From NCBI GenBank assembly GCA_026388665.1, contig JAPLJJ010000011.1, positions 1 through 45,508 on the forward strand: 45,508 bases of DNA. Direction: 5' to 3'. Shown piece by piece: positions 16,534 through 44,394 of this stretch; position 1 is the stretch's first letter, and each line of letters begins with the position of its first letter. The notes below the pieces were generated by a model. The model searched no databases. It saw nothing but the letters and a program-made list of their open reading frames with translations, and had not been told where the DNA came from. The stretch is from Deltaproteobacteria bacterium. GTDB lineage: Bacteria > Desulfobacterota > Desulfomonilia > Desulfomonilales > Desulfomonilaceae. Position numbers and translations under genes: made by a program.

Positions 16534-16956
16534 TTACTTGGACATTTCAATAAAGGCCATCCTTAACTGAAAAAGGGTGTCATCTATCAACTTTTTTTCT
16601 TGTTCAGTCAGGTTTCCTTTGGTCTTTAATTCGAGTATCGCTATTACATCAATTGTTTGACGAGCGCCTTCCAGGTCAGGTTCTATAGGCTCCTTCATGT
16701 CAGGCGTACGCAGAACACCAAGTTGAAACAATGCTGTTTGAGCCAAACTGGCGATCAAGGATGAAAAATCGACCGGCGGTCTTGTCGTCGTTTGCTGTTT
16801 CTTCCGGAGTTCTTGTGTCCCTATTTCTTCACTGTTCTCGGGCTTGTCCGGCTTTCCCGACTCCTGAGATTGTGAGGATTCTCCTCCTGGGGAGAACCGC
16901 CTCTTGTCCCTAACTTTAAACTCTTGAGTTTCTTCGTTTTCGTAATCCGACATCAT
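16534..16956 (-). CDS. DUF1844 domain protein
   Basis: VDFSSLIASLAQTALFQLGV...ARQTIDVIAILELKTKGNLTEQEKKLIDDTLFQLRMAFIEMSK. Confidence 0.85.
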   Translation of the reverse strand: MMSDYENEETQEFKVRDKRRFSPGGESSQSQESGKPDKPENSEEIGTQELRKKQQTTTRPPVDFSSLIASLAQTALFQLGVLRTPDMKEPIEPDLEGARQTIDVIAILELKTKGNLTEQEKKLIDDTLFQLRMAFIEMSK

Positions 16957-17023
16957 GTCTCTCCTCTTTACACTCGTAATTTGGGGAGTTCACGCTAAAA
17001 CACTGTATGTTACAAAAAAATTG

Positions 17024-17977
17024 TTATGTTTTCAAGAAATTATTGCGTGGACGCAAAGGATTGAGCTTCTCGAATTCCTCCACTAGTTTTCTAGATACGC
17101 CGTCAATCTTTTCAGGCAGCACGATATTAACCCGGGCAAGAAAATCGCCTCGAACCGGGTCTTTTAAAGAAGGGAATCCCTTGCCTCTAAACCTGAACGA
17201 CGTGCCATTTTGAACCCCGGTGGGGATCCGTAAGGCGACTTTCCCATCAGGCGCCGGAATTTCTATCTTAGCCCCAAGCATTGCTTCTCCAAGGGTTACA
17301 GGGATATCTAAAAAGATGTCCTTTCCTTCACGCCTGAAAAACCTGTGAGCCTTGACTAACATTTTCAGAAACAAGTCCCCTGGCCGGCCCCCTCGAGAGG
17401 GTGGATGCCCCTGACCATGGACCCTTATACGAGATCCTGTGTCTACACCCGCCGGGACATATACTTCCAAGGTTTTGTACGGAGTAGTAAGTGCTTTCTT
17501 GACCCCATAGTAGGCATCAACAAAAGTTACTTCCAAGTTTTGTTCAAGGTTGGAGATCTTGGAATTGGCGCCGTCTGTTGAGCGCATTCGATGAGTCTGT
17601 CCAAACAATTCGGAAAACCAGTCCTCGGCAGGAGAAGGTCCTTTTGCCCCGAAGAAATTCGTTGAATCGCCTCCGAAATTAAATCGACGATATGGACCGG
17701 CGCCAAAACTGGATCCATTTCTAAAAAATTGCTCGAAACCTGCTTGCGAATAAGTGCCGCCTCCTGATGCATACGTGTCGTATTCCCGTCTCCGTTCTTT
17801 GTCGCTCAGGATCTCATAAGCTAAGGATATCGCTTTAAAACGAGTTTCCGAGGCTTTGCTGTTTTCGTTCAGGTCGGGGTGATAACGTCGAGCGAGTTTT
17901 CGATAGGCTGACTTTACCTGCTCGTCATTCGCGTCTCGTGATACCCCTAACGTCTTGTATGGATCTAAATTCTCCAT
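17024..17977 (-). CDS. DnaJ/CbpA-type co-chaperone (J domain plus DnaJ C-terminal domain, no zinc finger)
   Basis: DPYKTLGVSRDANDEQVKSAYRKLARRYHPDLN; C-terminal beta domains. A TTG at 17998 is an alternative start. Confidence 0.9.
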   Translation of the reverse strand: MENLDPYKTLGVSRDANDEQVKSAYRKLARRYHPDLNENSKASETRFKAISLAYEILSDKERRREYDTYASGGGTYSQAGFEQFFRNGSSFGAGPYRRFNFGGDSTNFFGAKGPSPAEDWFSELFGQTHRMRSTDGANSKISNLEQNLEVTFVDAYYGVKKALTTPYKTLEVYVPAGVDTGSRIRVHGQGHPPSRGGRPGDLFLKMLVKAHRFFRREGKDIFLDIPVTLGEAMLGAKIEIPAPDGKVALRIPTGVQNGTSFRFRGKGFPSLKDPVRGDFLARVNIVLPEKIDGVSRKLVEEFEKLNPLRPRNNFLKT

Positions 17978-18162
17978 TAGTTTTTTGAATCGCTCCAATC
18001 AAAGGAACTCTTAATTTCAGACTCTAACCGTTCTCTTGGACCGGCGCTTTATGTCAAGAAACACTGATTCACGATATTGATTTCAAACCCAAGATAATCT
18101 TGCAGCTCATGAAGCGCCAAAAATAGACTGCGTTAAGGTCCGGTTTGACAGATTTTGGTTGG

Positions 18163-18603
18163 TTATTCGGTACACTCAATCCTAACGCAGCGGTCGGGTT
18201 CTTCCTGTGACTTTGGGAGATACAGGTCGAGAATGCCATCGACGTATCTTGCCTTGGCCTGTTCAGCGTCAATTGCGCCTGGAATATTGAAACTACGCTC
18301 AAAATACCCTTCTACCCTCTCAATAGTGTGATAAGCAGCGTAGTCCATTTCGGTCTGTTCCACGCGACTCCCTGAAATTACTAATCGTCTCCCGAGAATT
18401 TCAATGTTTATATTGTGTCTGCCAACACCAGGTAGCTCGGCTCGGATAATGTACGCGTCATTCGTTTCTAGAATGTCGACAGCCGGTAACCAGCAGGTTC
18501 GCCGTTTGGGCTGGGAATCCTCTGCGGGCAAGTCACCGAAACGACTGACCCTCTCCTGTATATTCAACAAGTCTCTCAATGGGTCCCATCTGATAAGAGT
18601 CAT
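18163..18603 (-). CDS. Hsp20/alpha-crystallin family small heat shock protein
   Basis: PAVDILETNDAYIIRAELPGVGRHNINIEILGRRLVISGSR...FERSFNIPGAIDAEQAKARYVDGILDLYLPKS. Confidence 0.92.
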   Translation of the reverse strand: MTLIRWDPLRDLLNIQERVSRFGDLPAEDSQPKRRTCWLPAVDILETNDAYIIRAELPGVGRHNINIEILGRRLVISGSRVEQTEMDYAAYHTIERVEGYFERSFNIPGAIDAEQAKARYVDGILDLYLPKSQEEPDRCVRIECTE

Positions 18604-18755: not shown

Positions 18756-19781
18756 TCAACGATTCACGTTAGGCAAGAGGTATCCTGACTCCTGAAGTTT
18801 TTGCAATAGGACACGCCCGGAACTGGAAGGGACCGCTATCGAATGGTTCTCAAGACGCCCGTTTGGTTTCGCAGGGAAGATTCCGGAATTCAGCTTAATT
18901 TTTGGATTGAGTTCAAGGATTAGTCTGGGCGAAACATTCACGAATTTGGCGATCTCTGCCACTGGAAGATCTTTGGCCAGTTGAATGCTTGTAAGGTTGT
19001 CATATGTCACAGGCGCCGGATCTGATATTTTTAATCCATACACGGAACGGTGGGTTCCAATTATTTTGAATGCGGCCCATCTGGAAAACATATCTTCAAT
19101 ATTGTCAGGTAGAGGAATATCCCACACACTTGATGAATTCCACTTTTCGATCAAATCCTTTGCGGTCTTGGCAGACAGAACATATGCAACTGAGGACATC
19201 AGCCAGCCTGCGCCCAAATCCTGTTTAAGATTTTTTATGCGATACGAAAAACAAAGTGTGGCCAAATTAATATCCAGTCTATCGTCTCGCCAAGTGTCAT
19301 CATGCATTTCCACTCCTTCAGCGGAACTGCACGGCCGATCTAGCGCCCAGCTCCCAGCAGGCGAGAGACGCGAGTTCGATGACCGACTAATTCCGGACAG
19401 GACAGGCGATAGCCAGGTAAAATCCTTGGGTATCCCCTGCTTGGAGAATGCTTCATCGAATATCCACGAATACCTCCGCTTTTCGTTCAACCATTCCGCC
19501 AAGACGCTACGAGCATCGAATAGTAGAAAATTGATTTGGAATTCAATACGCGCCTTAACATCGGGCCGTGTTATTGGAACCACTTCTCCTGCCAGTTCCA
19601 ATCCACCTGTGAGCACAGAATCAGGTATATAAAAATAGGGGCAACTGGCGTTTGAAGGATTCGTCTTGGCGCCGGAGACCGATGCGGCATAGCACTGACA
19701 GCACATCAGCAACGCCAATGTGATATGGAGTATGTAAGCGAGATAGCTGTTTGTTACGCGTTTACGCCTCAAAATAGGCAT
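18756..19781 (-). CDS. MltD-like lytic transglycosylase-fold protein with degenerate active site
   Basis: Signal peptide; collinear with E. coli MltD from the goose-type lysozyme fold to the first LysM-like segment (IPKDFTWLSPVLSGISRSSNSRLSPAGSWAL..., SSVWDIPLPDNIEDMFSRWAAFKIIGTHRSVYGLKI, AKDLPVAEIAKFVNVSPRLILELNP). Confidence 0.75.
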   Translation of the reverse strand: MPILRRKRVTNSYLAYILHITLALLMCCQCYAASVSGAKTNPSNASCPYFYIPDSVLTGGLELAGEVVPITRPDVKARIEFQINFLLFDARSVLAEWLNEKRRYSWIFDEAFSKQGIPKDFTWLSPVLSGISRSSNSRLSPAGSWALDRPCSSAEGVEMHDDTWRDDRLDINLATLCFSYRIKNLKQDLGAGWLMSSVAYVLSAKTAKDLIEKWNSSSVWDIPLPDNIEDMFSRWAAFKIIGTHRSVYGLKISDPAPVTYDNLTSIQLAKDLPVAEIAKFVNVSPRLILELNPKIKLNSGIFPAKPNGRLENHSIAVPSSSGRVLLQKLQESGYLLPNVNR

Positions 19782-19784
19782 GAT

Positions 19785-21524
19785 CTATTGTTTTGGCAAT
19801 GATTCAGGTGTCCCTAGTTTGCGTAGTTTTTCCTGAACTAAAACATTGTACGGGTTAATGGATAACGACCGCTGGTAGGCTTGCCGGGCTTCATCCGGAC
19901 GGTTTCTGGCAACCAGAACGTCACCAAGATGCTCAGCTATAATGGGATCATTCTTCACCTTCTGGCTCGCCTTTTCCAGATACTTGAACGCCTCATCAAC
20001 CTTGCCTGCCTTGAATAAGACCCACGCTAAGGAATCCGCTATGTAGCCATCATCGGGTTTTATTTCAAGAGCTTTTCGGACAAGTTTTTCCGCTCGATCT
20101 ATATCCTTACCCATTATTGCAAGCGTATATCCGATAAAATTCATCGCGCTTGGGTCGTCAGGCTTATCCTCGAGTATCTTTTCCATTGTCGAAAGGCTGA
20201 ACGAACGCATTCCACTCTTCTCAAAAGAGTTCCCGAGTGAGTACATGAGTTTCACATTGTCCGGCGCTATTTCGAGCGCTTTCTTATATTCTATTATAGA
20301 CTCGTTATACCGGTATAACTCTTCAAGAATCGACCCCTTGATATGATAGATATCAGCGTCCCGAGGCTCCTCATCAATCGCTTCATTGATATACTTAAGA
20401 GCTTTAGTAAAATCCTTAATGTTAAGAAACATTAGAGTGAGAACAATCCTTGAGTTGACAAAAGACGGCTGTCCTTTTTGAATCTGAACGAATTCTCTTT
20501 CCGCCTCTTCCGGTTTGCCTTGCTCCCTCAAAACACGGCCCAAGTGGAATCTAACCTGATCCCAACCTGGTTTACTCTGTAAGATTTTGTCAAATAGCTC
20601 TCTAGCTTTGTCAAACTGTTTTTGTTCAGCTAGAAGCAACGCCATTTTTATCTGAATTCCAAGATTGGACGGCGCCAACTTAGATAATTCTTCGAGGGTC
20701 TGATAGGACTCACCAAATTTTTTCTGGCTGGCCAGGACCTGTGCCAGGTTCAACCTTGCAGCCAAATTAAATGGATCAAGGGTTAACGCTTGCCTGTAAT
20801 GCTCCTCAGCTTTGGGGAATTGTTTTTGGATCACATATATTCCGCCCAGTTCAACATGAGCTTGAGAGGCGCTTTCTCCCCGTCTTTCAAGAAGGCTCTT
20901 GAAAATCTCAATTGCCTTGTCATACTGCTCATCTTCGATATAAACCTTACCCAGATAAAAATATCCCTCTTTCTCATCTGGAAACCGCTCTATCATAAGG
21001 CTAAAAGTCTTCTCCGACTCCTTCAGCAGCCTGTGAGACGCCTGTAGAGAACCCAGGAATATATAGAGGTCCCTATCGTCAGGCTTAAGATCCAGTGCTC
21101 GGTTATAAGCTTCGATGGCCTTGTTCGAGTCCCCGGTGACAGTATAGATCTTTCCCAATATTGTGTAAGCCTCTGAAGACTTGGGGTTTAACGTCACCGC
21201 ATTCTTGGCCATGACTATAGCGTCGGCTATCTTACGATTTCTTGCCAGGATGGCCGCGATTCTAGTGTGCAGGTAGTCTGATCCAGGATCCAGGTCAAGC
21301 GCTCGTTTGAAATAATTCAACATGCTTTCGCTGTCGCCTTGGGCTTCTGATTCTTCTCCCAGTAAAAAGAACAGACCGGGGTCCTTTTCCATGTCGGGAG
21401 CGACAACCGTTTTCTTGTGACCTGTATCGTCTACTCCAATTAGGGCAGCGCCTGTTGAGACCAAAACCAACACCAGAAACAGGCTGAGGAAAACACAACA
21501 GGCATGAGGAGTCTTTTTTGTCAT
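19785..21524 (-). CDS. exported TPR-repeat protein
   Basis: Signal peptide followed by many TPR motifs (e.g. AIEAYNRALDLKPDDRDLYIFLG). Confidence 0.88.
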   Translation of the reverse strand: MTKKTPHACCVFLSLFLVLVLVSTGAALIGVDDTGHKKTVVAPDMEKDPGLFFLLGEESEAQGDSESMLNYFKRALDLDPGSDYLHTRIAAILARNRKIADAIVMAKNAVTLNPKSSEAYTILGKIYTVTGDSNKAIEAYNRALDLKPDDRDLYIFLGSLQASHRLLKESEKTFSLMIERFPDEKEGYFYLGKVYIEDEQYDKAIEIFKSLLERRGESASQAHVELGGIYVIQKQFPKAEEHYRQALTLDPFNLAARLNLAQVLASQKKFGESYQTLEELSKLAPSNLGIQIKMALLLAEQKQFDKARELFDKILQSKPGWDQVRFHLGRVLREQGKPEEAEREFVQIQKGQPSFVNSRIVLTLMFLNIKDFTKALKYINEAIDEEPRDADIYHIKGSILEELYRYNESIIEYKKALEIAPDNVKLMYSLGNSFEKSGMRSFSLSTMEKILEDKPDDPSAMNFIGYTLAIMGKDIDRAEKLVRKALEIKPDDGYIADSLAWVLFKAGKVDEAFKYLEKASQKVKNDPIIAEHLGDVLVARNRPDEARQAYQRSLSINPYNVLVQEKLRKLGTPESLPKQ

Positions 21525-21571: not shown

Positions 21572-22234
21572 TCATCCGTTGCGTATGTTAGCGATGGCGA
21601 CATCATAAGGCGGCCTTCCAAAAACAGCGCTACCCGCTACAAGAACATTTACCCCAGCTTTAGTCAAGTCAGACGCATTTTGCGGGATTACTCCTCCATC
21701 CACTTCAAGGAGTATGTCATAACCGGATTCATCAATCATTTTTCTAATAGCTCTTATCTTGGGAAACATAGTCGGAATAAAAGACTGGCCACCGAACCCC
21801 GGGTTTACCGTCATGACCATTATAACATCCAACTCAGCAAGCACGTTCTCGATTGCACATACGCTGGTCGACGGATTCAAGGCGACCCCTGCTTTCATCC
21901 CTAACTCCCGAATCTTGACCAGAGTACGATGCAGATGCACACACGCCTCCGGATGCAAACTGAGAATGTCTGCGCCCGCCGCGTGAAAATCTTCCACATA
22001 TCGATCCGGCGACGAAATCATGAGATGCACATCCAGCGGGACATCTGCGCAACGTTTCGCTGCCTCAACCACCAAGGGTCCAATCGTTATGTTTGGAACA
22101 AAGTGTCCATCCATGACATCTATGTGGAGCCAGTCGGCTCCGGCAGCCTGAATAGCTTTGATTTCTTCCCCCAAACGTGAAAAATCGGCCGACAAAATAG
22201 ACGGAGCTATAAGAACGTTCGATTTACAATTCAT
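21572..22234 (-). CDS. rpe: ribulose-phosphate 3-epimerase
   Basis: APSILSADFSRLGEEI, WLHIDVMDGHFVPNITIGP, MTVNPGFGGQSFI, LLEVDGGV. Confidence 0.95.
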   Translation of the reverse strand: MNCKSNVLIAPSILSADFSRLGEEIKAIQAAGADWLHIDVMDGHFVPNITIGPLVVEAAKRCADVPLDVHLMISSPDRYVEDFHAAGADILSLHPEACVHLHRTLVKIRELGMKAGVALNPSTSVCAIENVLAELDVIMVMTVNPGFGGQSFIPTMFPKIRAIRKMIDESGYDILLEVDGGVIPQNASDLTKAGVNVLVAGSAVFGRPPYDVAIANIRNG

Positions 22235-22269
22235 AAAAATCTCCCATAACCAATGACGCGAAGAAAAAG

Positions 22270-23283
22270 CTAAAGCTCGACCCCTTCGATTTCATATCCA
22301 CACTTCGGACACCGGCCTTCCTTGATAGCATATTTCTGAATCGAGTAACCTATTCGATCAATCAACATATAAGAACAACCGGGACAATATGTCTTCTCGC
22401 CGGGTTCCCAAGGTAAATTACCTGTATATACGTAATAAAGACCTTCATCCAGGCCAATCTGGCGAACGTGCCTAAGGGCAGTGGCGTCGGTCGGTGGTAA
22501 ATCAAGTTCTTTATAACGTGGAAAGAATCTGCTCACGTGCCAAGGGGTTTCTCTTCCCAGTTCGTTCTTGATGAAACAAACCATTTCTTTAATCTCCGAC
22601 GTTTCATCATTCATTCCGGGAATAAGTAGTGTAGTCACCTCTAACCAGGCGCCTATTTTTTTAATGTATTTTAATGAATCAAGAACTCCATTGAGACGAG
22701 CCCTGCAATACTGAGTGTAAAACTTGTCGTTAAAAGCCTTGAGATCTACGTTTGCCCCGTCGATAAGGCCCCTCGAATCATCGAGCATTTCTCGACTCAT
22801 ATAACCATTGGTCACAAAGACATTGAGAAGCCCGGCTTTTTTTGCCAGGATCATGGTATCACGAGCCAATTCGTAATAAATGGTGGGTTCAGTGTAGGTG
22901 TAAGCTATGCTTTTGCATCCGCTTTCAACCGCCATATAGACTATCTGTTGCGGGGTGTAGTCTCTTCCGGAAATGTCGCCGGATTCATTAGGAGCTTGCG
23001 ATATTGAGTAATTCTGACAAAAGGTGCATCGGAAATTGCATCCCATCGTGGCTATCGAAAAAGATTTCGTGCCGGGCGCAAAATGAAATAACGGTTTTTT
23101 TTCTATAGGATCAACGTTTGTTGACACCACTTTGTCGTAAACAAGGCTGAACAAGGTCCCGTTCTTATTTTCACGGACCCCGCAAAAGCCGCGCTCTCCG
23201 TCCTCAATTTTACAGTTTTGACGGCACAGTTTGCATCGTACAGCGTTCGTGCCCGTTTTTTCATATAAAGCAGCTTCTATCAT
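22270..23283 (-). CDS. amrS: AmmeMemoRadiSam system radical SAM enzyme (AmrS)
   Basis: CKLCRQNCKI...RGFCGVREN N-terminus, radical SAM CNFRCTFC, C-terminal CX2C pairs. Confidence 0.88.
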   Translation of the reverse strand: MIEAALYEKTGTNAVRCKLCRQNCKIEDGERGFCGVRENKNGTLFSLVYDKVVSTNVDPIEKKPLFHFAPGTKSFSIATMGCNFRCTFCQNYSISQAPNESGDISGRDYTPQQIVYMAVESGCKSIAYTYTEPTIYYELARDTMILAKKAGLLNVFVTNGYMSREMLDDSRGLIDGANVDLKAFNDKFYTQYCRARLNGVLDSLKYIKKIGAWLEVTTLLIPGMNDETSEIKEMVCFIKNELGRETPWHVSRFFPRYKELDLPPTDATALRHVRQIGLDEGLYYVYTGNLPWEPGEKTYCPGCSYMLIDRIGYSIQKYAIKEGRCPKCGYEIEGVEL

Positions 23284-24725
23284 CGTACAAAATCCTCTAA
23301 TCTTTTTGACAATCGAAGGATTAGGTTTTCAAAACCACCGTTTGACATCACTATTATGACATCATCAGGTCGAAGTTCGAGTGTTAGGAAATCAATGATA
23401 GAATTCGCGTCTGGAAAGGCTCGAGCTATTTTGCCTCTTTTTGTAAGTTCGCCCGCAAGCAGGCTTGAACTGAACAGGTCCCCCTCCGGCGCTTTCCAGG
23501 GATCCGGCGGGTCTCGTAGCGCTATTACATCTGCCGGAAGAAAAGATTCAATATAGTTCTCTTGAAATATCGATCTACGACTGGTGTTTGTGCGAGGCTC
23601 AAAAACCGCGATGAGTCTTTGTTCCGGAAATCTGAGACGAAAACCTGCCAGAGTCTCACGAACTTCTGATGGATGGTGCGCAAAGTCATCAATCAAAGTT
23701 ATGCCGGAATTAAGTCTGGTTACTTGTTGTCGTCTGGTGACACCCTTGAAAGATCCCAAAGACATGAAGGCATTCTGAGGCACTACACCGACTTTCGCGA
23801 CCGCAGCGATTGCAGCCAGAGCATTTAGAACGTTGTGCCGTCCTATCACTGGCAGAATCCCTGATGCGATCTCAGTGGCGCCTCTCTTGAAAACCGCGTG
23901 CATCCCAGCTCCGGTATCCCTTGCTTCGGCTATACCCCAAGTCGAATCAGGACGAAATCCGTATGTTTCAGCGTTAGAATGATTCGCTTCAAGAATATCA
24001 CGAATAACGGAGTCGTCATTACAAGCCAGTATTAGTCCGCTGTCCGGGATAAGTCGCAGAAATTTCTCAAATTCACGCCGTATTTGCCCAAGGTCCTGAT
24101 AAATATCAGCGTGATCGAACTCGCAAGATGTTACTATCCCTACAAACGGTTTGTAATGCAGAAATTTGGGCTGTTTGTCAAAAAATGCCGAATCATACTC
24201 GTCTCCTTCGAGCACAAAAAGATTGCTTTGCCCAAATCGAGAACCAGCGTTGAAGTTGATAGGCAACCCACCGATTATAAAACCGGGATCGAGCCCCTGA
24301 TCGTAGAGGATCCAGGAGATCATCGAGCTCAAGGTTGTTTTTCCATGGGATCCCGCGACTACAAGACATAGTTTGTCCGTCAGAAAATATTGCTCAATCG
24401 CGCCAGGCATTGATGTAAAAGGAATTTGAAGATTCAGAGTAGCCCGAGCCTCCGGATTATCCCTCCTTATAACATTCCCGATAACTACGAGATCAGGCCG
24501 CGGGACTAGGTTTGTAGGCGAATAACCCTCGTGGATTTGCACCCCCAACCCAGCAAGATGGTCGCTCATGGGTGGATATACTGCCTGGTCCGAACCTGTG
24601 ACAACACGACCCCGGGACAAAAAAAGGCCAGCCACGCCAGCCATTCCTACACCACAAACACCTATAAGGTGGACGTGACTAGGCTCGTTCGGCAATTGAC
24701 ATTTAAAGTCGGAATGATCAGTCAA
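23280..24725 (-). CDS. mpl: UDP-N-acetylmuramate:L-alanyl-gamma-D-glutamyl-meso-diaminopimelate ligase
   Basis: Mur ligase motifs (HLIGVCGVGMAGVAGLF, VAGSHGKTTLSSMISWIL, LEGDEYDSAFFDKQPKFLHYKP, IDDFAHHPSEVRETL). TTG at 24725 fits a GAAGGA RBS; TTG 24731 is the alternative. Confidence 0.9.
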   Translation of the reverse strand: MTDHSDFKCQLPNEPSHVHLIGVCGVGMAGVAGLFLSRGRVVTGSDQAVYPPMSDHLAGLGVQIHEGYSPTNLVPRPDLVVIGNVIRRDNPEARATLNLQIPFTSMPGAIEQYFLTDKLCLVVAGSHGKTTLSSMISWILYDQGLDPGFIIGGLPINFNAGSRFGQSNLFVLEGDEYDSAFFDKQPKFLHYKPFVGIVTSCEFDHADIYQDLGQIRREFEKFLRLIPDSGLILACNDDSVIRDILEANHSNAETYGFRPDSTWGIAEARDTGAGMHAVFKRGATEIASGILPVIGRHNVLNALAAIAAVAKVGVVPQNAFMSLGSFKGVTRRQQVTRLNSGITLIDDFAHHPSEVRETLAGFRLRFPEQRLIAVFEPRTNTSRRSIFQENYIESFLPADVIALRDPPDPWKAPEGDLFSSSLLAGELTKRGKIARAFPDANSIIDFLTLELRPDDVIIVMSNGGFENLILRLSKRLEDFVR

Positions 24726-24782
24726 ATACAATCCTTCAAATCCGTACTATTCCAAGACCGCACCCCAGGAAAGGTTGAACCC

Positions 24783-33009: not shown

Positions 33010-34323
33010 ATGTTGTTACGGAAACCGTTCAGGTTTGGATTTAGTTTATTTCTTTGCCTTGTATTTCTCTTGGTCAGCCATGAAGGCTACTGCGCGGATT
33101 CAAGCGTAAAGTCTCCGGATTATAAGGAACTAAAACTCTTTAGACAGGTTATGGAAATTGTACGTAAGAATTATGTAAAAGACGTCACCGACAAGGAACT
33201 CATCCAGGGAGCGATAGGCGGAATGCTGCAATCGCTGGATGCCCATTCGTCATTCCTCACTGAAGAAATGTTCAAAGAGCTACAGGTGGAAACCAAGGGC
33301 GAATTCGGGGGCTTGGGAATCGAGATTACTCTGGATGGTGGAATTCTAACAGTTGTTTCGCCTATTGAGGATACCCCCGCGTTTAAGGTCGGCATTAAAC
33401 CGGGCGATAAAATTATAAAAATAAATGGCGAACCCACCAAGAACATAACGCTGCACAGCGCGGTTCAGCAAATGAGAGGCCCCAAAGGCACAAAAGTTAA
33501 TTTGACCATAATGCGAGAGGGCTTTAAGAAGCTGAAGGACTTCACGATAACAAGAGACATCATCCATGTTCAATCGGTAAAAAAGGAAGCTTTGGATTCC
33601 GGGTATGCCTATGTCAAGATTGTTAGTTTTCAGGAGACAACCGACACGGACTTGATGGCGGCAATCAAGGAACTAGGGGATGATGAGAAAATTAAGGGGT
33701 TAATTCTGGATCTGCGTAATAATCCTGGCGGTCTTCTGGATCAGGCCGTTAAGGTAACTAATCTGTTTATAAACAAAGGCCTCATAGTCTACACCGACGG
33801 TCGAGTCAAAGATCAACGAATGGATTTCAGAGCTTCACCAGCGGGGACCCATTATAAATTCAAGATGGCCGTGCTTATCAACGAAGGCAGCGCAAGCGCG
33901 TCGGAAATCGTAGCAGGTGCTTTGCAGGATCACGACCGAGCCTTAATTTTGGGCACGAAATCCTTTGGAAAGGCTTCGGTCCAAACTATCATTCCGCTTG
34001 ATAACGGTTCCGGGCTGCGTCTCACAACCGCGTACTACTACACCCCCAAGGGACGCCATATTCAGAAAACAGGTATTCTACCGGATATTGACCTGAAGAC
34101 GGAGGTTCAGAAGAAAGAAGAGGAAGAAACGGCTTCCGAAGAGGCAAAGAACGGTAAGAAAAACGAAAAGCGCAGTAGATTCACTAAGGAAACAAAGGCT
34201 GATCTGGAAAATGATGTCGTGGTTAAAAAGGCCCTAGAATGGCTGCAATCCAAAGTGGACTTGAAAAAGTATAAACAGGAACACGAAAAACCAGCAGAGG
34301 ACACCACTGCCTTAAACAAGTAA
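33010..34323 (+). CDS. S41 family C-terminal processing peptidase
   Basis: Signal peptide; PDZ domain; catalytic region LINEGSASASEIVAGALQDHDRALILGTKSFGKASVQ. Confidence 0.95.
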   Translation: MLLRKPFRFGFSLFLCLVFLLVSHEGYCADSSVKSPDYKELKLFRQVMEIVRKNYVKDVTDKELIQGAIGGMLQSLDAHSSFLTEEMFKELQVETKGEFGGLGIEITLDGGILTVVSPIEDTPAFKVGIKPGDKIIKINGEPTKNITLHSAVQQMRGPKGTKVNLTIMREGFKKLKDFTITRDIIHVQSVKKEALDSGYAYVKIVSFQETTDTDLMAAIKELGDDEKIKGLILDLRNNPGGLLDQAVKVTNLFINKGLIVYTDGRVKDQRMDFRASPAGTHYKFKMAVLINEGSASASEIVAGALQDHDRALILGTKSFGKASVQTIIPLDNGSGLRLTTAYYYTPKGRHIQKTGILPDIDLKTEVQKKEEEETASEEAKNGKKNEKRSRFTKETKADLENDVVVKKALEWLQSKVDLKKYKQEHEKPAEDTTALNK

Positions 34324-34354
34324 ATCAACTGTAATTCTGCCGTCTAAACAGACA

Positions 34355-34382
34355 ACCGGATTGGCTCGATCGCCAATCCGGT
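34355..34382 (+). terminator. perfect 11-bp stem-loop downstream of the S41 peptidase gene (terminator or 3' stabiliser)
   Basis: ACCGGATTGGC-TCGATC-GCCAATCCGGT; no U-run follows. Confidence 0.45.
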
Positions 34383-34591
34383 CATCTTAGAATCCCATCA
34401 GCCCCTGAAAAAACCCACAGAGAAAAGACGTTAGAAGGGAATTAAACCAAAGAGTTCACACGGAATTTTGTGAAATCGCACTAGGGGAACGGGTGAAATC
34501 GCCCAATATTTGAGCTGGAATCTTTTTGTGTATTTTGCAAATTTTCAATCACGAGAGCGCTTATTATACAAAATGATCAACAGGCTCCTAA

Positions 34592-35761
34592 TTGACTGAC
34601 AAAAATCCCTTTGTGTTGCAGGTTCTAGTATTCGCACTGGTTTGCGCGGCGTTTACAGAGATCTATATCACGCAGCCCGTGCTGCCGGTCCTCCGTGTCG
34701 AATTCGGTGTAGACGCAACCACGGCGTCCTGGACAATTGCAGCGGTAGTTTTGGGCATAGCCCTTTCAAACCTCCCTTTTGGAATGCTCTCTGACCGGTA
34801 TCCCTTGAAGCCGATAATACTGATTGGTGGATTTATTGTGGCTTCATGCGGTTTCTTCTGCGCTATTACCGAAAGCCTAACGTTCCTGATTGCCGCCCGC
34901 TTCGTTCAGGGTCTATTCATACCCTCTCTGACCACCTGCATTGCCGCATACTTGGCAAGGAGCCTGCCTGCGGAATCTCTCAATGTGGTCATGGGCTCTT
35001 ACATATCAGCAACCGTGGCAGGTGGCCTCTTGGGTCGTCTACTCGGTGGATGGATACATCCTCCACTGCACTGGCGTTTTGCTTTTGTGAGTTCATCTCT
35101 CTTAGTTTTAGCAGCGACCGGCGCGGCGTTTCACTGGCTGCCACGTGACGAGCGTAATATTACGAATAATTCCGGTGGTCCAGGTTTTATCCAGTTGATT
35201 AAGACAAAGGAGTCGCTGCGAACCTATCTCGCAGCATTTGGAGCTTTCTTTGTGTTCTCATCTATTTTTAACTACATGCCGTTTTATCTTTCCGGACCGC
35301 CCTTTGAAGCAAGTACAGAGGTCATCACACTACTCTACCTCTCCTATGTGATAGGAATAATAATCGGCCCTCTGGCAGGAAAACTAAGCAACCGTTTCGG
35401 TAATGGTTTAACAATGGTCCTCGGCGCTATAATTCTAGGCGCGTCTGTAGGAGCAACGCTTTTCAAGTCCCTGCTGGTTATTACCTTTAGTCTCGTAGGG
35501 GTTTGCGCCGGCTTTTTCTCGATTCATGCTTCGGCCGCGGGCTCCCTTAACCGCAATCTTACATCAGGTCAGGGGCGCGCTAATTCTCTTTACGTCTTCT
35601 TCTACTATTTGGGTGGCGCAGTCGGGATAACTCTGAGCGGCTATGGTTACTTTTTCTATGGTTGGTATGGCGTTGCGGGCCTTGCTATTACGACTCTCTT
35701 CATTCCTTTTGCGGTCGGCGTGAGCGAACTCGTCAACGAGAAGAAAATCGGAGAAAGTTAG
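34592..35761 (+). CDS. MFS transporter
   Basis: 12-TM pattern with GMLSDRYPLKP motif A; YITQPVLPVL N-terminus. Start appears to be TTG. Confidence 0.88.
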   Translation: MTDKNPFVLQVLVFALVCAAFTEIYITQPVLPVLRVEFGVDATTASWTIAAVVLGIALSNLPFGMLSDRYPLKPIILIGGFIVASCGFFCAITESLTFLIAARFVQGLFIPSLTTCIAAYLARSLPAESLNVVMGSYISATVAGGLLGRLLGGWIHPPLHWRFAFVSSSLLVLAATGAAFHWLPRDERNITNNSGGPGFIQLIKTKESLRTYLAAFGAFFVFSSIFNYMPFYLSGPPFEASTEVITLLYLSYVIGIIIGPLAGKLSNRFGNGLTMVLGAIILGASVGATLFKSLLVITFSLVGVCAGFFSIHASAAGSLNRNLTSGQGRANSLYVFFYYLGGAVGITLSGYGYFFYGWYGVAGLAITTLFIPFAVGVSELVNEKKIGES

Positions 35762-35862
35762 GGATGCAAAGCTTGGATGTTTAATAAAATAAACAGATAC
35801 TTGCACAGGTGTAGCTCTCGCCTGCGCATAAATGTAATTAACGTTGAGTAGTAGTGAGAGGC

Positions 35863-36051
35863 TTATAAGGTTTTATAAGGTCCGTAAAACCAGGACTGAT
35901 TAGGGTCATCCATCATAATTTTGTACATTGCCTCATGGGTGGCTTGCATGAAATTCTCCAGCACCGGGGGTGGAGAAATGGTGCTATGTGGCTCTGTTGT
36001 CACATTATCCGTGCTGTTTTCCAATTCTGCTTTAGAGTCCTCTAGTTCCAT
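35863..36051 (-). CDS. small acidic protein (62 aa), tentative
   Basis: AGGTAGGAC upstream of ATG; no competing ORF on the other strand with a better RBS. Confidence 0.4.
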   Translation of the reverse strand: MELEDSKAELENSTDNVTTEPHSTISPPPVLENFMQATHEAMYKIMMDDPNQSWFYGPYKTL

Positions 36052-36216
36052 GTCCTACCTGCTTGGGCAAAACTTTTTCTTTAATAAATCATGGGAGGTG
36101 ACTTTAACATTGGGCGGTCATGAGGTCAAGTATTACTTCATCAATTTATGGCTTCATGAAGTGTCTCTCATTTCAATACCTCATACCCCGTGGTGCGGAC
36201 CTTATACACGTTGTTA

Positions 36217-37368
36217 TCACACGAAGCGTTTTTTTATGGCCTGGATATACTCCGGGATGCCTCCGGGTAAATCCTTCTCAATTTCACGTTTGGCCGCCTC
36301 CAGACGAGAACGAACACCTGGCTCGTATATATCATCAAGACTCCTGAGAGCCCCGCCTCGCCTACCTAACTGGAACATTAAACGTTCTTCGTACGGCAGG
36401 TTTAGATAACGGTGAATTACTGCCAGCATCTTTTCTTTGTCTTCCGGGAGCTTGCCTTCAACTTCCTCCAAGAGATTTAAGATGTGATCACTAGCAATTG
36501 TGGTCGTTATATTTTCTAGTCGCTGGATAATATCGCGAATTTCCGTGACTATGCGATCTTCGTCCGGGGGATTGAACAGGCCCTGTTTCGTCATTTCGGC
36601 CAGCGGTGTGTTATGTCGCACATAGAGCGATCTAAACCTTACAAAAGCAGGGTTAACACCATTGATCACGCGGGCCGTTTCATGAGTGTGATCCTCTGAT
36701 AATTCAACTCCGCCAATACCTGGGATGACATACAGGGAGAGCGAGATTTCGGCTTCGACAACCCGTTTTCCGCCTTCCAGGAGTTGTTCTGATTTGCAGC
36801 CCTTATCAATCAGCTTCAGCACTTTGTCGGAACCGGACTCCATGCCTACATGAAGCCTCGTCAAACCACATTCTTTGAGCCTGATGTATTCATCCACCGT
36901 TTTTAATTTTAGGGTTGAAGCTCGCGCGTAAGATGTTACTCGTAATACCTGTGGAAAATTCTTCCGTATATGATTCAGGATCTCTATCAGAGAATCGGTT
37001 GAAAGCATCAAGGAATTCGCGTCCTGGAGGAAAACCGTTTCGCCCCCGGAAGCTATCCAGTAAGCAACCGAACGAAAGGAATCAGGAATGGTCGCATCTC
37101 TGAAGACCGACGAAATCACTCTGTTGGTGAACTCGCCGGCGTCTCCCATTTTCCATGATATCTCTTTGATCTCATTATAAATGGCAGCCATAGAATCAAT
37201 GTCCTTCAGAATTTCTTCAACAGGCCTACGAGAAAATTTCTTTCCTTTATAAGTTGAACAAAAGGCGCATCGATTCCATGGGCAATTCCTTGTTACCCTT
37301 AGAAGGAGGCTCCCGGCTTCACTTGGTGGTCTTATGGGACCTTGTTCAAAGGCTAATTCTTTTTGCAT
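36217..37368 (-). CDS. radical SAM protein
   Basis: RVTRNCPWNRCAFCSTYKGK cluster motif, GLTRLHVGMESGSDKVLKLIDKG, SLYVIPGIGG. Confidence 0.88.
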   Translation of the reverse strand: MQKELAFEQGPIRPPSEAGSLLLRVTRNCPWNRCAFCSTYKGKKFSRRPVEEILKDIDSMAAIYNEIKEISWKMGDAGEFTNRVISSVFRDATIPDSFRSVAYWIASGGETVFLQDANSLMLSTDSLIEILNHIRKNFPQVLRVTSYARASTLKLKTVDEYIRLKECGLTRLHVGMESGSDKVLKLIDKGCKSEQLLEGGKRVVEAEISLSLYVIPGIGGVELSEDHTHETARVINGVNPAFVRFRSLYVRHNTPLAEMTKQGLFNPPDEDRIVTEIRDIIQRLENITTTIASDHILNLLEEVEGKLPEDKEKMLAVIHRYLNLPYEERLMFQLGRRGGALRSLDDIYEPGVRSRLEAAKREIEKDLPGGIPEYIQAIKKRFV

Positions 37369-37528
37369 GAGTCCACACCATAATTATAAATGCAGAAAAT
37401 TCGCTTTCGCGATTTTTCAAACTTATTCCCCCCTGCACTAAAGTATCTCTATTACTTATTATGATTAGAGGACAAATTGTCAATCAGGATGCTGCACATA
37501 GAGGTCTAAGAAAGATCCGTTTGGCGCT

Positions 37529-37822
37529 CTACCCGCAGGCGGCCCAGGGTTCAACTTGATTTTGATCTTCCAAGGGTACAGCGTGCATGTCGGTTTTACC
37601 CTGAAAGGCCCTCAGAGTTCTGGCCAACACCCTACAATGTTCGCAGGGGTTATAGGTTGATTGATATTTTTGTACCCCTCCGCGAGATCGGGTTGCGATT
37701 TCAATCTTGAGATCTTTAATTTCAGAATAGATCTTCAGACAGTGCCGAATTGACCACCGCCCTTTGAAAACGCGACAGGTAACAGCGTATTTTTCCAGCC
37801 AATTATCTTTTTCTCTCTCCAT
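37529..37822 (-). CDS. hypothetical protein with CX2C motif (about 97 aa)
   Basis: ATG 37822 preceded by GAGGGAGGCGGTC; MEREKDNWLEKYAVTCRVFKGRW...YNPCEHCRVLARTL. Confidence 0.55.
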   Translation of the reverse strand: MEREKDNWLEKYAVTCRVFKGRWSIRHCLKIYSEIKDLKIEIATRSRGGVQKYQSTYNPCEHCRVLARTLRAFQGKTDMHAVPLEDQNQVEPWAACG

Positions 37823-38038
37823 GACCGCCTCCCTCGGATTGGTTTGAAAGACACACCTTAACCTTGGGATCCATAACCTTCTCATTGATTGAAAACCTTT
37901 GAATCGTTGGACAATGTCCTTCTTTATATGTTCCATTTCGGCGATCTCTGTGATGATGTTTTCTCGTCCACAAATTGCGATTGACTAAACCTACTTTTCA
38001 TGCTAGTTTCCTGATAATTAGATGTATGGGTAAAAGCT

Positions 38039-39424
38039 ATGGCTAATGAGCGTCCCGGTTCCGTAAAATTCAATAAGCCTCGAAACGGATTGTCGATCCG
38101 AGTTTTGGTAATCGCGGCTTGTTTGATCACCGCCGGGACTGCTGTTTGTCTCTGGCCGAGCTTCAATCTTAGGCTCCCCTTCGCCTGCGATATCAGGTCA
38201 ACATCCGCTGACCTGAATGTCCCAACACCAGGCCCAACCTGCGCCGTAAAAACGGAAAAGCCACAAGAGGAAGATATTGATCCCGGACTGAACGGATCGC
38301 AGGAAGCGACCGACGTGACAGCCCCCGGCGACACTCTAGTCTCTGTTCTGAACGATAATCTGTCGGACGAAACTGTAATCAGACAGGTCGCCCAGAACCT
38401 CGCCGCAACAATTCAAAGTTCCTTGAGCATACCCTTCACGGCAGACACTGTCTTACCCTCCGGTCGACGCTATAGCATCACCATTGATCGGGACGGACGA
38501 TTTTTACAGGCCGTCCTCGAATTGGAACCCGCTCATGTGTTTCATGCCGCTCGTGAAGAAGGTGGAATTCGGTCTTGGAAAGAAGAAGTAGTGCTTGACT
38601 TCAAAACCGAAGTGATCTGCTTCCAGATGAAAGGCAGTCTGACGGAATCTTTGTTGAGCGCGGGAGAGGGACTTGAATTGGCTTTGAAATTGGCCAATGT
38701 GTTCAGATGGGATATTGATTTCCATTCGGAATCGGTCAGGGGTGATACTTGTCGTGTCCTATTTGAGCGACGTTACGCTGATGACAGGCCATCAGGTTAT
38801 GGACGTATCCTTGGGGCCGTGTATGAGGGCAAGAAGACAGGAATTAAGTCTGCGGTTTTATTCAATAACGAATATTACGATGAGAGTGGCGTTGAACTTA
38901 AGAAGAACTTCTTGAGATCACCTCTGAGCGTGATCAAAGTTACGTCAAGATATGGATATCGTCTGCATCCGGTATTTAAGGTTTGGCGCAAACACAACGG
39001 TGTCGATTATGGGGCTTCTCAAGGCACTCCTGTATGGGCAGTCGCCGGTGGAGTCGTGACATACTCGGGCTGGAGCAATGGATACGGTAATTACGTCTGT
39101 ATAAAGCACGACAACGGTTTCGAGAGCCGATATGGGCATCTTCAGCGGTTCTTTGTGGCTAAAGGACAGAGGATCAAACAGCGGCAAAGGATCGGCCTTG
39201 TTGGACAGACCGGTATTGCGACAGCGCCACATCTTGATTTCCAGTTGCTGGTCGCCAATAAACACGTGAACCCATTGAAAGTGACCATGGTTAAGAGTTT
39301 GAAGGCGGTTCCGACACCATTAGCGCCACGTTTTGCTATGCTGGCCCAAGACAGATTGATGGGCCTCAAAGGAATTATGCTGACCAAGGGTTCCAATCAA
39401 TTAACCAAGCTTGCCGTTGAATAA
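38039..39424 (+). CDS. M23 family metallopeptidase (LytM-type)
   Basis: TSRYGYRLHPVFKVWRKHNGVDYGASQGTPVWAVAGGVVTYSGWSNGYGNYVCIKHDNGFESRYGHL...PHLDFQL. Confidence 0.92.
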   Translation: MANERPGSVKFNKPRNGLSIRVLVIAACLITAGTAVCLWPSFNLRLPFACDIRSTSADLNVPTPGPTCAVKTEKPQEEDIDPGLNGSQEATDVTAPGDTLVSVLNDNLSDETVIRQVAQNLAATIQSSLSIPFTADTVLPSGRRYSITIDRDGRFLQAVLELEPAHVFHAAREEGGIRSWKEEVVLDFKTEVICFQMKGSLTESLLSAGEGLELALKLANVFRWDIDFHSESVRGDTCRVLFERRYADDRPSGYGRILGAVYEGKKTGIKSAVLFNNEYYDESGVELKKNFLRSPLSVIKVTSRYGYRLHPVFKVWRKHNGVDYGASQGTPVWAVAGGVVTYSGWSNGYGNYVCIKHDNGFESRYGHLQRFFVAKGQRIKQRQRIGLVGQTGIATAPHLDFQLLVANKHVNPLKVTMVKSLKAVPTPLAPRFAMLAQDRLMGLKGIMLTKGSNQLTKLAVE

Positions 39425-39605
39425 TCACCTCTCTTTATCTTTCTCAACATTAACCATCAGCACATCATTTAACCCATTGCAGTTTTGAGCTTTAGTTCCG
39501 CACTAGTATAACAATTCCGCATATCTTCCCTGAATCCTTGACCGATTAGCCACAACCGAGTATACTAACCATGATGTCTTGTGCCCCAAATGGAGATAGT
39601 CCCAA

Positions 39606-40118
39606 ATGAAGAAATTCTTTATAGCGCTAGTGGTTTTTCTTTCACTGAACGCTGTTTCAAATAGTTTTGCGTTCCTCGATTATTTATTTTCCGGGTCGTC
39701 GAGCAGAGACGCTATCGATAATTCCGCGGTGGGCGACTTGCGCGCATGGTGGACAGGGAACCCTGCATATACGTTCAATCCATACTATTCCGGACAACAA
39801 CCCCAGGCGCCGCAAGGACAACAACAGGCCGGGCAAGCCCCTCAGGTTATGCAGCCCCAGCTCCAGCAGCCAACTATCAACTATTACCCACCTTCCCAAG
39901 GTGGTTCTTCATACCAGTATGGGCCTCAACAATATCCGGCTCAACAAATGCCTCAACAGGCTCCCCAACAGCAAATGCAGTACGGTCAGCCTCAACAACA
40001 GTTCTATCAGCCGCAGCAACAACAAACGTATCAGCCCCAACCCCAAGGTATGCAGGCAGCGCCACCTCAATACCAAATGGGGCCACAATCTAATCAATAT
40101 CAGGGTAACCAGCAGTAA
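39606..40118 (+). CDS. secreted Gln/Pro/Tyr-rich low-complexity protein
   Basis: Signal peptide MKKFFIALVVFLSLNAVSNSFA, short conserved-looking segment, then about 120 aa of Q/P/Y/G-rich sequence. Confidence 0.75.
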   Translation: MKKFFIALVVFLSLNAVSNSFAFLDYLFSGSSSRDAIDNSAVGDLRAWWTGNPAYTFNPYYSGQQPQAPQGQQQAGQAPQVMQPQLQQPTINYYPPSQGGSSYQYGPQQYPAQQMPQQAPQQQMQYGQPQQQFYQPQQQQTYQPQPQGMQAAPPQYQMGPQSNQYQGNQQ

Positions 40119-40360
40119 TTATTGCGAAATATATGTAAGACTGAAACATTAGCCTCCCGCAGGACTTCAACCCAGCGAGAGGACTGATAAATTCGGTGGC
40201 GCCACCCGTCATAAAATTCAGGAATTGTTTTCCCGAAGGTTATACACCCTCCGAGAGGATGCATTCATCCGAAGGATTGCCCTTTGCAATATGACAGGAC
40301 TTGGTTCCGAGAGAATAACCAGATGGGACGTTTTGTTATGTGGGGGAAAACTGACTTCGG

Positions 40361-41179
40361 CTATTCAGAGGCTGATGCGAGAGATTTTAATCTTGCGGCC
40401 GCTAGCCTGCCATGCGCAGTGTGTGGGTTGTTCTTGACGATCTTCTGAAAAATTATCTTGGCGGATTTCGCGTCACCCATCTTCTCGAAGGCCTGTCCTT
40501 GCTTGAACTGAGCGCTTAAATCTTTCTTCGAGCCGGGATATTCCTTGATGACTCGGTCAAACAGAAGCACGGCTTCTTCGAAACGCCCCTGTTCCAGCCT
40601 GACCTCTCCTATCCAGTAAACCGCGTTTGGCGCAAACTGACTTTTGGGGTTCTTTTTTAGGAAATCCTCAAATTGTGTCACCGCTGTTTCCAGCGCGCCA
40701 CTCTTGAAGGTTGCGTATGCTGAGCGATAAACCTTTTCATCCGGGGTCAAAGGAATGTTTCGGACCTCGGTGACTTCGTCCGATTGATCGAGCGCCACTG
40801 CCGAAGTTGATCCTTTTCGGTTCCCAGCGGTATCAGCTTTGTTCGAGTCCGGAGATTGGGTAGAGGATGCGCTCGTCTGACTATCAATCCCTAGCTGTTT
40901 CTCTATCTGACTGATTCGTTCCTGGAGGTTCTTTATGGACTTGTCCATGCCTCCGCCTGCTTCGAGTCGCTCAAGCGAGTCCCGCATTTTTTGGAGTTCC
41001 ACCTCCAGGTCTTGGACTCTGGAAACCGCTGCAACAGAACTTGACTCTTGATTGCCCACTGAGTTGGCGGGTTTTACATAAGGCAGAGTGGGGCTTAAAG
41101 TCCTGGTTAAGCAACCACCACACAAAAAACAGGAAAAGATTGCTATGATAAAAACGAAGCGCGCCATTTTAAGCTTCAT
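40361..41179 (-). CDS. cpoB: Tol-Pal system protein YbgF/CpoB (predicted lipoprotein)
   Basis: LCGGC lipobox, coiled coil, TPR domain EKVYRSAYATFKSGALETAVTQFEDFLKKNPKSQFAPNAVYWIGE. Confidence 0.9.
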   Translation of the reverse strand: MKLKMARFVFIIAIFSCFLCGGCLTRTLSPTLPYVKPANSVGNQESSSVAAVSRVQDLEVELQKMRDSLERLEAGGGMDKSIKNLQERISQIEKQLGIDSQTSASSTQSPDSNKADTAGNRKGSTSAVALDQSDEVTEVRNIPLTPDEKVYRSAYATFKSGALETAVTQFEDFLKKNPKSQFAPNAVYWIGEVRLEQGRFEEAVLLFDRVIKEYPGSKKDLSAQFKQGQAFEKMGDAKSAKIIFQKIVKNNPHTAHGRLAAARLKSLASASE

Positions 41180-41673
41180 TTGGAAACACGGACATACACT
41201 CGCCTGTTCTTGGCCCAGGCTTCTTCATTATGATTTGGATCAACCGGTAGTTCTGAACCGAACGAAACCGTGCTCATTCTGTTACCGGCTATTCCTAGAG
41301 CAGCCAGACGCTGGACTACGGTCCCTGCCCTCCGTTCACCCAAGGCAAGGTTGTACTCTGCTGTTCCCCTCTCGTCGCAATGCCCTTCCGCTACTACAGC
41401 AAGAGTCGGGAAACGTTTGAGTACCTCGGCGTTGTAATCGATCGCCGCCTGAGCGTCTGGAGTTAGAGTATAGTTGTCAAAGTCAAAGTAAATCGGTTTA
41501 AGACTGGCCTGCACACCCTGAAGCTCACCCTCCGCGATAGCTCCCTGTCCTGCCATACCAAGTCCTGGCGAAGGCATATCATTCGGTTTAACAATCTTTT
41601 TGGCGCACCCACCCGTCAAAGCGACTACGAGCAGTAGGGCGGCGGCGTATATTATCAGGTGGCGAGTATGCAT
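41176..41673 (-). CDS. pal: peptidoglycan-associated lipoprotein Pal
   Basis: Lipobox LTGGC; OmpA-like IYFDFDNYTLTPDAQAAIDYNAEVL...AEGHCDERGTAEYNLALGERRA. Confidence 0.95.
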   Translation of the reverse strand: MHTRHLIIYAAALLLVVALTGGCAKKIVKPNDMPSPGLGMAGQGAIAEGELQGVQASLKPIYFDFDNYTLTPDAQAAIDYNAEVLKRFPTLAVVAEGHCDERGTAEYNLALGERRAGTVVQRLAALGIAGNRMSTVSFGSELPVDPNHNEEAWAKNRRVYVRVSK

Positions 41674-41705
41674 TTCTCTTCATCTCCTTTTCTCCAAGGA
41701 TCCAA

Positions 41706-43028
41706 TTACTTAAACCTTGGAGACCATGCCGGACTACGACCGGGGATGCTGGAAACCGGCGTCTGAACTGTACCTTTAGCATCCATCACGAATATGCGTT
41801 TAACTCCATCCCGGTTTGACGTAAAAGCGATCATTCGTCCATCCGGCGACCAGGAAGGGTCCTGGTTCGAGCCCTTATTCGTCAGAACTCTAAAATCGCT
41901 GCCATCCGGCCTGATCACACAAACCTGAAAACGACCATCGATCTTTGCTGTGAACGCCAGCAGGTCACCACGACGCGACCAATCCGGGTCCGTGTTATAC
42001 GAGGTGGATAGAGTTATACGCCTTGGATCTCCTCCATTTACTGGGACAGTATAAATCTGGGGAGATCCTGCCTGGTCGGAAACATATGCTACGTAAGCGC
42101 CGTCCGGTGACCATGTGGGTGAGATATCATTTCCTAATCCGTTAGTCAATTGTTTTATTATGTGACTTTGAGTATTTATAATAAATATCTTAGGTATAGC
42201 TTTAACACTAAGAGACAACGCTATCAGGTTTCCGTCCGGAGAGAAATGACCTGAAGCGTTCAGACCTTTCCTGTTGGATACAGGGATTAATCTTTGGCCA
42301 TCGACGCTGACGTACCATAGGTCCGGATTACGATTTATATAGGAAGTAAAAATTAGACCTTTGCCGTCAGGGGCCCAGTCAGGAGACATGTTTATCGTCT
42401 GAGTATTTGTCAACTGACGGAGATTATTTCCATCGAAATCCATCGAAAAGATTTCTCTGGACTTCGAATCATCGACAAAGGCTATCTTGGTTGTAAAGCA
42501 ACCTGGCAGATTCGTAATTTTCTCCATTAGTCTGTCGTCAAACATATGAACAATATAGCGATAGTCCGCCGGGGAACCGCTATATCTCTTTCCCAATTCG
42601 AGTCTTTGGAGACCGATGTCATAAAGTTTGCATTCAACAGTTAGTTGATTGCCATTGACGAAAAAGCTACCCATTACCAGGGCCTGAGCGCCGGTTTTCG
42701 CGAGATTAACCAAATCCGGTTCACCCCCCTGGTTGAGCGGGAGGGGTTGAGGCGCTTCAATTATTTCAAATAAGCCACTTAATATTAAATCATTTTTTAC
42801 GATTGAGGCTAACTCGGCCCCATTTAGAGGACCGGGCTGATTTGTCGAAAATTCAGGGATGATAATTGGCATTTTGCCGAGGTTCGGATTGTCCACATCC
42901 AGCAAGAGCTTACCAAAGGCGGGCTGGGAACAAATACAAATCAACAAGATAGCTGACAACAACACTTGACACGCAAGACAAGACACCGTTTTGGCTGGAG
43001 CATTGTCGTCGAGTCTGGTTGGCTTCAT
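41706..43028 (-). CDS. tolB: Tol-Pal system protein TolB
   Basis: Repeated WSPDG-type beta-propeller motifs and TolB N-terminal domain. Confidence 0.95.
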   Translation of the reverse strand: MKPTRLDDNAPAKTVSCLACQVLLSAILLICICSQPAFGKLLLDVDNPNLGKMPIIIPEFSTNQPGPLNGAELASIVKNDLILSGLFEIIEAPQPLPLNQGGEPDLVNLAKTGAQALVMGSFFVNGNQLTVECKLYDIGLQRLELGKRYSGSPADYRYIVHMFDDRLMEKITNLPGCFTTKIAFVDDSKSREIFSMDFDGNNLRQLTNTQTINMSPDWAPDGKGLIFTSYINRNPDLWYVSVDGQRLIPVSNRKGLNASGHFSPDGNLIALSLSVKAIPKIFIINTQSHIIKQLTNGLGNDISPTWSPDGAYVAYVSDQAGSPQIYTVPVNGGDPRRITLSTSYNTDPDWSRRGDLLAFTAKIDGRFQVCVIRPDGSDFRVLTNKGSNQDPSWSPDGRMIAFTSNRDGVKRIFVMDAKGTVQTPVSSIPGRSPAWSPRFK

Positions 43029-43918: not shown

Positions 43919-44352
43919 TTAGTTGATTTACTAGAACCCTCCTCCGGCGTAGTGATCATTCCGAGATTGGAAACACCCGCGGTTTTCAGGCTACTCATAA
44001 TTCTGACTACAACTCCATACGGTACTGCCTTGTCCGCCCGTAAAAAGACTTCCCGATTAGGTCTGTCTTTAGTGGCCTCAATAATGGTCGAAGCCAACTG
44101 GTCCTCCGAAACCGCCTTATCATTGACAAAAATCGACCCTGGCCCTGAAACTGAAATGATTACTTCATCGTGTTGCTGGGTTTTTTCGATTGGTTCGCCT
44201 TTAGCCGACGGGAGTTCTACTGACACCCCCTCTTGGAGCATAGGCGCAGTGACCATAAATATGATCAATAGAACGAGCATTACGTCAACCAGCGGGGTTA
44301 CGTTTATATCGGCCATAGGGGCTCGATTACTTCTATTAAGGCTAAACGCCAT
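43915..44352 (-). CDS. tolR: TolR/ExbD family protein
   Basis: RAPMADINVTPLVDVMLVLLIIFMVTAPML. Confidence 0.95.
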   Translation of the reverse strand: MAFSLNRSNRAPMADINVTPLVDVMLVLLIIFMVTAPMLQEGVSVELPSAKGEPIEKTQQHDEVIISVSGPGSIFVNDKAVSEDQLASTIIEATKDRPNREVFLRADKAVPYGVVVRIMSSLKTAGVSNLGMITTPEEGSSKSTK

Positions 44353-44394
44353 CTGATCGCCTCCTAAAATTCAACACATGAAAACCCCGCAAAT

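Follow-up and report, generated by a model that had tools for sequence, protein, structure and literature searches.

A conserved, probably non-catalytic relative of the lytic transglycosylase MltD encoded next to a TPR-scaffold gene in the Desulfomonilaceae

The window analysed here, the whole stretch of 45,508 nucleotides from a member of the Desulfomonilaceae (Desulfobacterota), encodes at positions 18756..19781 of the minus strand a pseudo-lytic-transglycosylase of 341 amino acids related to MltD, hereafter pseudo-MltD, and comparison with active relatives strongly supports the view that this protein is catalytically dead. As judged from aligned sequences, the protein retains the scaffold but has been stripped of its chemistry and of most polar residues of the active site. 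We infer a partner function for pseudo-MltD and give a probability of about 0.5 to the reading that it is a "degenerate LT factor", which would bind proteins together with the neighbouring TPR scaffold and thereby control or place hydrolases.

The open reading frame, recognized by ORF reading and homology, starts with ATG and lies on the minus strand exactly where a preliminary description of this DNA had placed it, and the spacing of 3 nt (19782-19784) reported there between the stop codon of the TPR gene and this ATG is correct. Direct reading of the sequence before the ATG revealed no clear Shine-Dalgarno sequence, and translational coupling of pseudo-MltD with the TPR gene is plausible. 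The protein comprises a signal peptide or N-terminal helix, the dead SLT-like domain at about residues 52-255 and a LysM-like segment at about residues 260-320.

Pfam and NCBIfam scans of pseudo-MltD detected neither an SLT nor a LysM domain, the Pfam SLT model missing the protein. Collinearity with E. coli MltD through the SLT domain and the first LysM-like segment, as originally suggested, was established by profile-profile comparison with nine MltDs headed by the E. coli protein (E=8.8e-36), and a still closer match (E 1.9e-57) was obtained between the pseudo-MltD group and active short paralogues of the same family. A phmmer search of the PDB matched residues 102-296 to P. aeruginosa MltD (8rhe, E=2e-6). 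The LysM-like segment is collinear with MltD in the profile alignment but has no Pfam LysM match, and its residues 268-293 are conserved among the orthologues. An AlphaFold model built from 16 sequences (mean pLDDT 77) predicts the lysozyme-like SLT fold of the family 1 lytic transglycosylases, and Foldseek returned only six matches with E <0.001, all of them P. aeruginosa MltD (probability 1.00) with moderate TM-scores of 0.45-0.58. The structure prediction thus agrees with MltD in overall fold, as far as that part of the proposed check goes, with the active-site loop modelled at low confidence: pLDDT falls below 50 at residues 133-142 and 162-166, beside the former active site, and given these values and the moderate TM-scores the active-site geometry is not readable from the model.

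The glutamate of the LPIVESAF motif is, as checked by alignment, residue 125 of E. coli MltD, whose replacement inactivates that enzyme (PMC10931528). In pseudo-MltD the aligned position is Leu128 (codon at 19396..19398, minus strand), GIWQ has become GSWA and AYNSG has become AYVLS, precisely as first noticed. This column holds Leu (13), Ile (2), Phe (1) or Met (1) in the 17 orthologues and never Glu, which occupies it in every one of the 27 active relatives in the alignment (11 active paralogues and 16 MltDs). Further MltD residues lost in every orthologue row are Gln143 (A, S, G or other), Asn196 (V, I, M, A or L), Thr227 (A, I, V, L or P) and Tyr230 (L, M or I), with Thr148 of the PST motif replaced by Cys in 17/17; Glu226 is gone in 16 rows and kept in one, and Gly198 is gone in 15 and kept in two. 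Hence pseudo-MltD lacks the GxWQ motif, the PST threonine, AYNxG and E-T-x-x-Y by which family 1 lytic transglycosylases are recognized, and the orthologues keep Gly140, Trp142, the D and R of DxRxD and the Ala-Tyr pair. An alignment slip that masks the glutamate was considered and rejected, since the surroundings of position 128 contain no conserved Glu, and an acid at position 120 is equally frequent in active MltDs. The non-catalytic reading proposed at the outset is consistent with every sequence test, including the inspection of orthologues for retained active-site residues. Two cysteines, C151 and C177, do not vary across the 16 orthologues aligned, C151 standing where the PST motif of MltD has its Thr; their conservation alone suggests a possible Cys151-Cys177 disulfide spanning the former active site.

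An orthologue of pseudo-MltD is present in 17/18 genomes of the family at 42-71% identity, in one genome (G008) as contig-end fragments only, and genome G016 carries a sister Glu-less group only, without the orthologue; most of the genomes compared are MAGs. Among 395 genomes of the phylum, the orthologue is found with E 1e-153 or better inside the family and 1e-33 at best outside, and the ES..GxWQ and AYNxG motifs are retained in all 23 nearest outside-family homologues read, so that the dead MltD paralogue is confined, among the genomes searched, to one family, apparently the Desulfomonilaceae. Within the genus, dN/dS is about 0.07-0.12 for moderately diverged, computable pairs and reaches 0.26 in the closest pair; most remaining pairs are saturated at synonymous sites. 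These values indicate that the gene is maintained under purifying selection. A decaying pseudogene was ruled out, the frame being open in all orthologues at a dN/dS of about 0.07-0.26.

In a tree rooted at the midpoint, the 16 full orthologues group together as a single clade (100/99); its sister is a second Glu-less group with nine members (98/98), and both are nested in a family-specific expansion that includes active members. With this rooting, the simplest history would be a single loss of the glutamate followed by duplication. The second group (L031:3667-4692, from the same genome as the window, G000:C35, with L035, L037, L043, L044, L048, L049, L050 and L067) has Leu (6), Val, Ile or Gln in the Glu column and often lies beside an HU-like gene, outside the TPR block. 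It resembles pseudo-MltD in the loss of Glu, Gln and Asn at the same positions, and differs in keeping the Gly of AYNxG, in lacking the invariant Cys and in having the HU-like gene in place of the TPR neighbour. An active short paralogue and a classical MltD coexist with pseudo-MltD in the same genome.

Directly upstream of pseudo-MltD, at 19785..21524 on the minus strand, lies the gene for a TPR-scaffold protein of 579 amino acids with about 15 TPR helix pairs, an LbcA-like C-terminal half and no lipobox. The pairing of the two genes, first suspected from their spacing, holds well beyond the window, as the TPR gene is immediately upstream in 15/15 other genomes with both genes on a contig. 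The usual block runs Mpl - radical SAM - Rpe - TPR - pseudo-LT - Hsp20 - DnaJ - DUF1844, interrupted where a contig ends or a gene has diverged. In the window, the upstream genes for Rpe, a radical SAM protein (AmmeMemo-like) and an Mpl-like protein, named by sequence reading and conserved in order, occupy 21572..24731, and the downstream Hsp20, DnaJ and DUF1844 genes, assigned by domain matches and gene order and conserved in order in most relatives, occupy 16534..18603, all on the minus strand.

The best natural PDB match of the TPR protein by sequence is LbcA (PA4667), with residues 251-573 aligned to 203-524 (phmmer 1.1e-31), which supports an LbcA-type C-terminal TPR domain, TPR similarity being only partly specific. 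LbcA binds CtpA through its N-terminal region (PMC11021448), and this region is unmatched by sequence in the TPR protein. The model of the TPR protein consists of about 15 regular helix pairs from residue 49 on, and Foldseek placed LbcA at rank 6, with human OGT among those ahead, so the fold is not LbcA-specific. The TPR protein was therefore rejected as a proven LbcA orthologue, with the adaptor region unmatched and the fold search unspecific.

The TPR family occurs in 67/99 relatives (E <1e-40). A strict lipobox test is passed by 2/15 members within the Desulfomonilaceae, without conservation, and by 35/50 N-termini outside the family, where several more resemble lipoboxes by eye. Outside the family, a DUF4292/LolB/LolA-like gene is commonly next after the TPR gene (adjoining in 31/50, with one query protein), and lolB and ipk are the operon partners of lbcA in P. 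aeruginosa (PMC6050968). At the Desulfobacterota loci L103-L115 and L126-L163 a gene for an LbcA-like TPR lipoprotein commonly precedes a DUF4292/LolB-like gene, an arrangement that resembles lbcA-lolB of Pseudomonas. In the Desulfomonilaceae this slot after the TPR gene is occupied by the pseudo-LT, and DUF4292-like proteins give only weak matches, elsewhere in some of these genomes. The active "long" MltD-like paralogues at L038, L040 and L046 have another gene immediately upstream, which encodes a small TPR protein in L040 and L046; TPR-LT gene pairs thus occur twice in this Desulfomonile-type family.

Envelope genes are also found at 33010-45162 of the window, namely a CtpA-family protease, an M23 peptidase (38039-39424) and a Tol-Pal-like set with a TolQ/ExbB type protein, a TonB C-terminal type protein, TolB, an OmpA-type lipoprotein and a TPR protein. 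The S41 protease of the CtpA family, which has a PDZ domain and is encoded at 33010..34323 on the plus strand, is a candidate pathway member, its gene unlinked in most genomes. A general linkage of ctpA with the TPR gene was examined and dismissed: the two genes are near each other in G071 and G075 alone, separated by about 12 kb in the window and in G001, and far apart in the near-complete G010.

According to the preferred reading, that of a degenerate LT factor, pseudo-MltD would be exported and would keep its lysozyme-like fold. Protein partners, of which the adjacent TPR protein is the likeliest, would be bound by the former cleft, now remodelled and largely non-polar, or by a different surface. 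Together the two would form a soluble unit in the periplasm that controls peptidoglycan hydrolases or determines their placement, by analogy with dead LytM domains. Against this reading, any contact between pseudo-MltD and the TPR protein is putative, adjacency alone is weak in a conserved block that includes unrelated housekeeping genes, and the second pseudo-group does not lie beside a TPR gene in the same arrangement.

Among the alternatives, the one that survives best, itself tentative, is a non-catalytic, lectin-like protein whose affinity for peptidoglycan glycan would reside in the LysM-like segment or in the cleft, and which would tether the soluble TPR protein to the cell wall. The collinear LysM-like segment with its conserved residues speaks for it, and an alternative anchor would make sense for a TPR protein without the lipid anchor usual elsewhere. 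However, the residues at Q143, T148, N196, E226, T227 and Y230, and mostly at G198, are now hydrophobic, small or Cys, which argues against a glycan held in the old cleft, and the Pfam LysM scan gave no match; the weak LysM-like segment alone might still hold glycan. Of the original proposal of a peptidoglycan-binding or regulatory protein, the regulatory half thus fits better and the peptidoglycan-binding half is less supported.

As a more speculative part of the preferred reading, the TPR protein may serve a CtpA-type protease as LbcA-like adaptor, with pseudo-MltD as its anchor, decoy or recognition subunit. A further reading, about as doubtful as the lectin-like one, is a soluble module of two proteins, an LbcA-like TPR scaffold and a dead MltD that has replaced the LolB-type neighbour. 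As a degenerate LT factor and counterpart of the degenerate LytM factors, this MltD would be the subunit of a CtpA-type protease or of a hydrolase complex that provides targeting, a decoy or an anchor. The unmatched CtpA-binding region, the Foldseek ranking that does not favour LbcA and the absence of general ctpA linkage weigh against the adaptor role, also as a component of the preferred reading, and any link of the TPR/pseudo-MltD pair with CtpA is speculative.

It is unlikely that pseudo-MltD is an inhibitor or partner of active MltD-like paralogues, as a surface mimic that competes for partners or in mixed complexes: potential targets are present in the genome as the short paralogue and the classical MltD, and the former group is close in the profile comparison, but the genes are unlinked, any oligomer interfaces are hypothetical and nothing in the proposal is particular to the conserved TPR linkage. 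Still less probable is a function unrelated to the neighbours, with a position that reflects only an old, stable operon; the block does mix unrelated roles (Mpl, Rpe, DnaJ, Hsp20), but the slot after the TPR gene is otherwise commonly filled by an envelope gene (DUF4292/LolB-like), and the TPR and pseudo-MltD proteins are both predicted to be exported. Highly improbable is an enzyme with its catalytic acid at another position, for although D166, D167 and D170 are invariant, the equivalent D-x-R-x-D acids are present beside E125 in active MltDs, and no new conserved Glu has appeared near position 128.

In the open-access PMC literature we found no earlier description of a conserved pseudoenzyme of the lytic transglycosylase family, which is weak evidence of absence. 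A natural, family-wide dead MltD whose cells also contain active paralogues and whose TPR partner gene is fixed would make the non-catalytic role of MltD-type proteins directly testable, and the present survey suggests that LbcA-like TPR scaffolds occur widely across the Desulfobacterota.

Compared with known systems, pseudo-MltD resembles MltD of E. coli (b0211) and P. aeruginosa (8rhe), both family 1 enzymes, in its collinear layout and in the kept G-x-W, D-x-R-x-D and Ala-Tyr, and is unlike them in having lost the catalytic Glu, the Gln of GxWQ, the Asn of AYN, the PST Thr and E-T-x-x-Y, and in having no conserved lipobox, a short C-terminus and the invariant C151 and C177. Dead LytM domains are established regulators of cell-wall hydrolases. 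With the degenerate LytM factors EnvC, NlpD and DipM, pseudo-MltD shares a dead peptidoglycan-hydrolase domain, here proposed to regulate live hydrolases, whereas theirs is an endopeptidase LytM fold as opposed to a lysozyme-like LT and their regulation is demonstrated; pseudo-MltD contains no dead LytM/M23 domain, its fold being MltD-like by Foldseek, and the comparison concerns the working principle only. In Caulobacter, a dead LytM domain regulates autolysins that include lytic transglycosylases (PMC10336132). The LbcA-CtpA system of P. aeruginosa is matched by the C-terminal half of the TPR protein and by the presence of a CtpA-family protease in the window; it differs in that the TPR protein has neither a lipobox nor a matched N-terminal CtpA-binding region, and that the neighbour is pseudo-MltD rather than lolB. 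Cross-link hydrolases are substrates of LbcA-CtpA, and MltD was recovered among the proteins bound to the trap yet was not degraded (PMC6050968), while in E. coli NlpI-Prc does degrade MltD (PMC10931528). A Sel1-repeat protein inhibits MltF (PMC10746161), and this IltA-MltF pair (PA3978) is alike in that a helical-repeat protein binds and controls a lytic transglycosylase, and unlike in its Sel1 repeats, its active LT target and the lack of a pseudo-LT. Taken together, the LbcA-CtpA, NlpI-Prc, Sel1-MltF and dead-LytM cases indicate that encounters between MltD-type proteins and repeat-protein adaptors have precedents in known systems.
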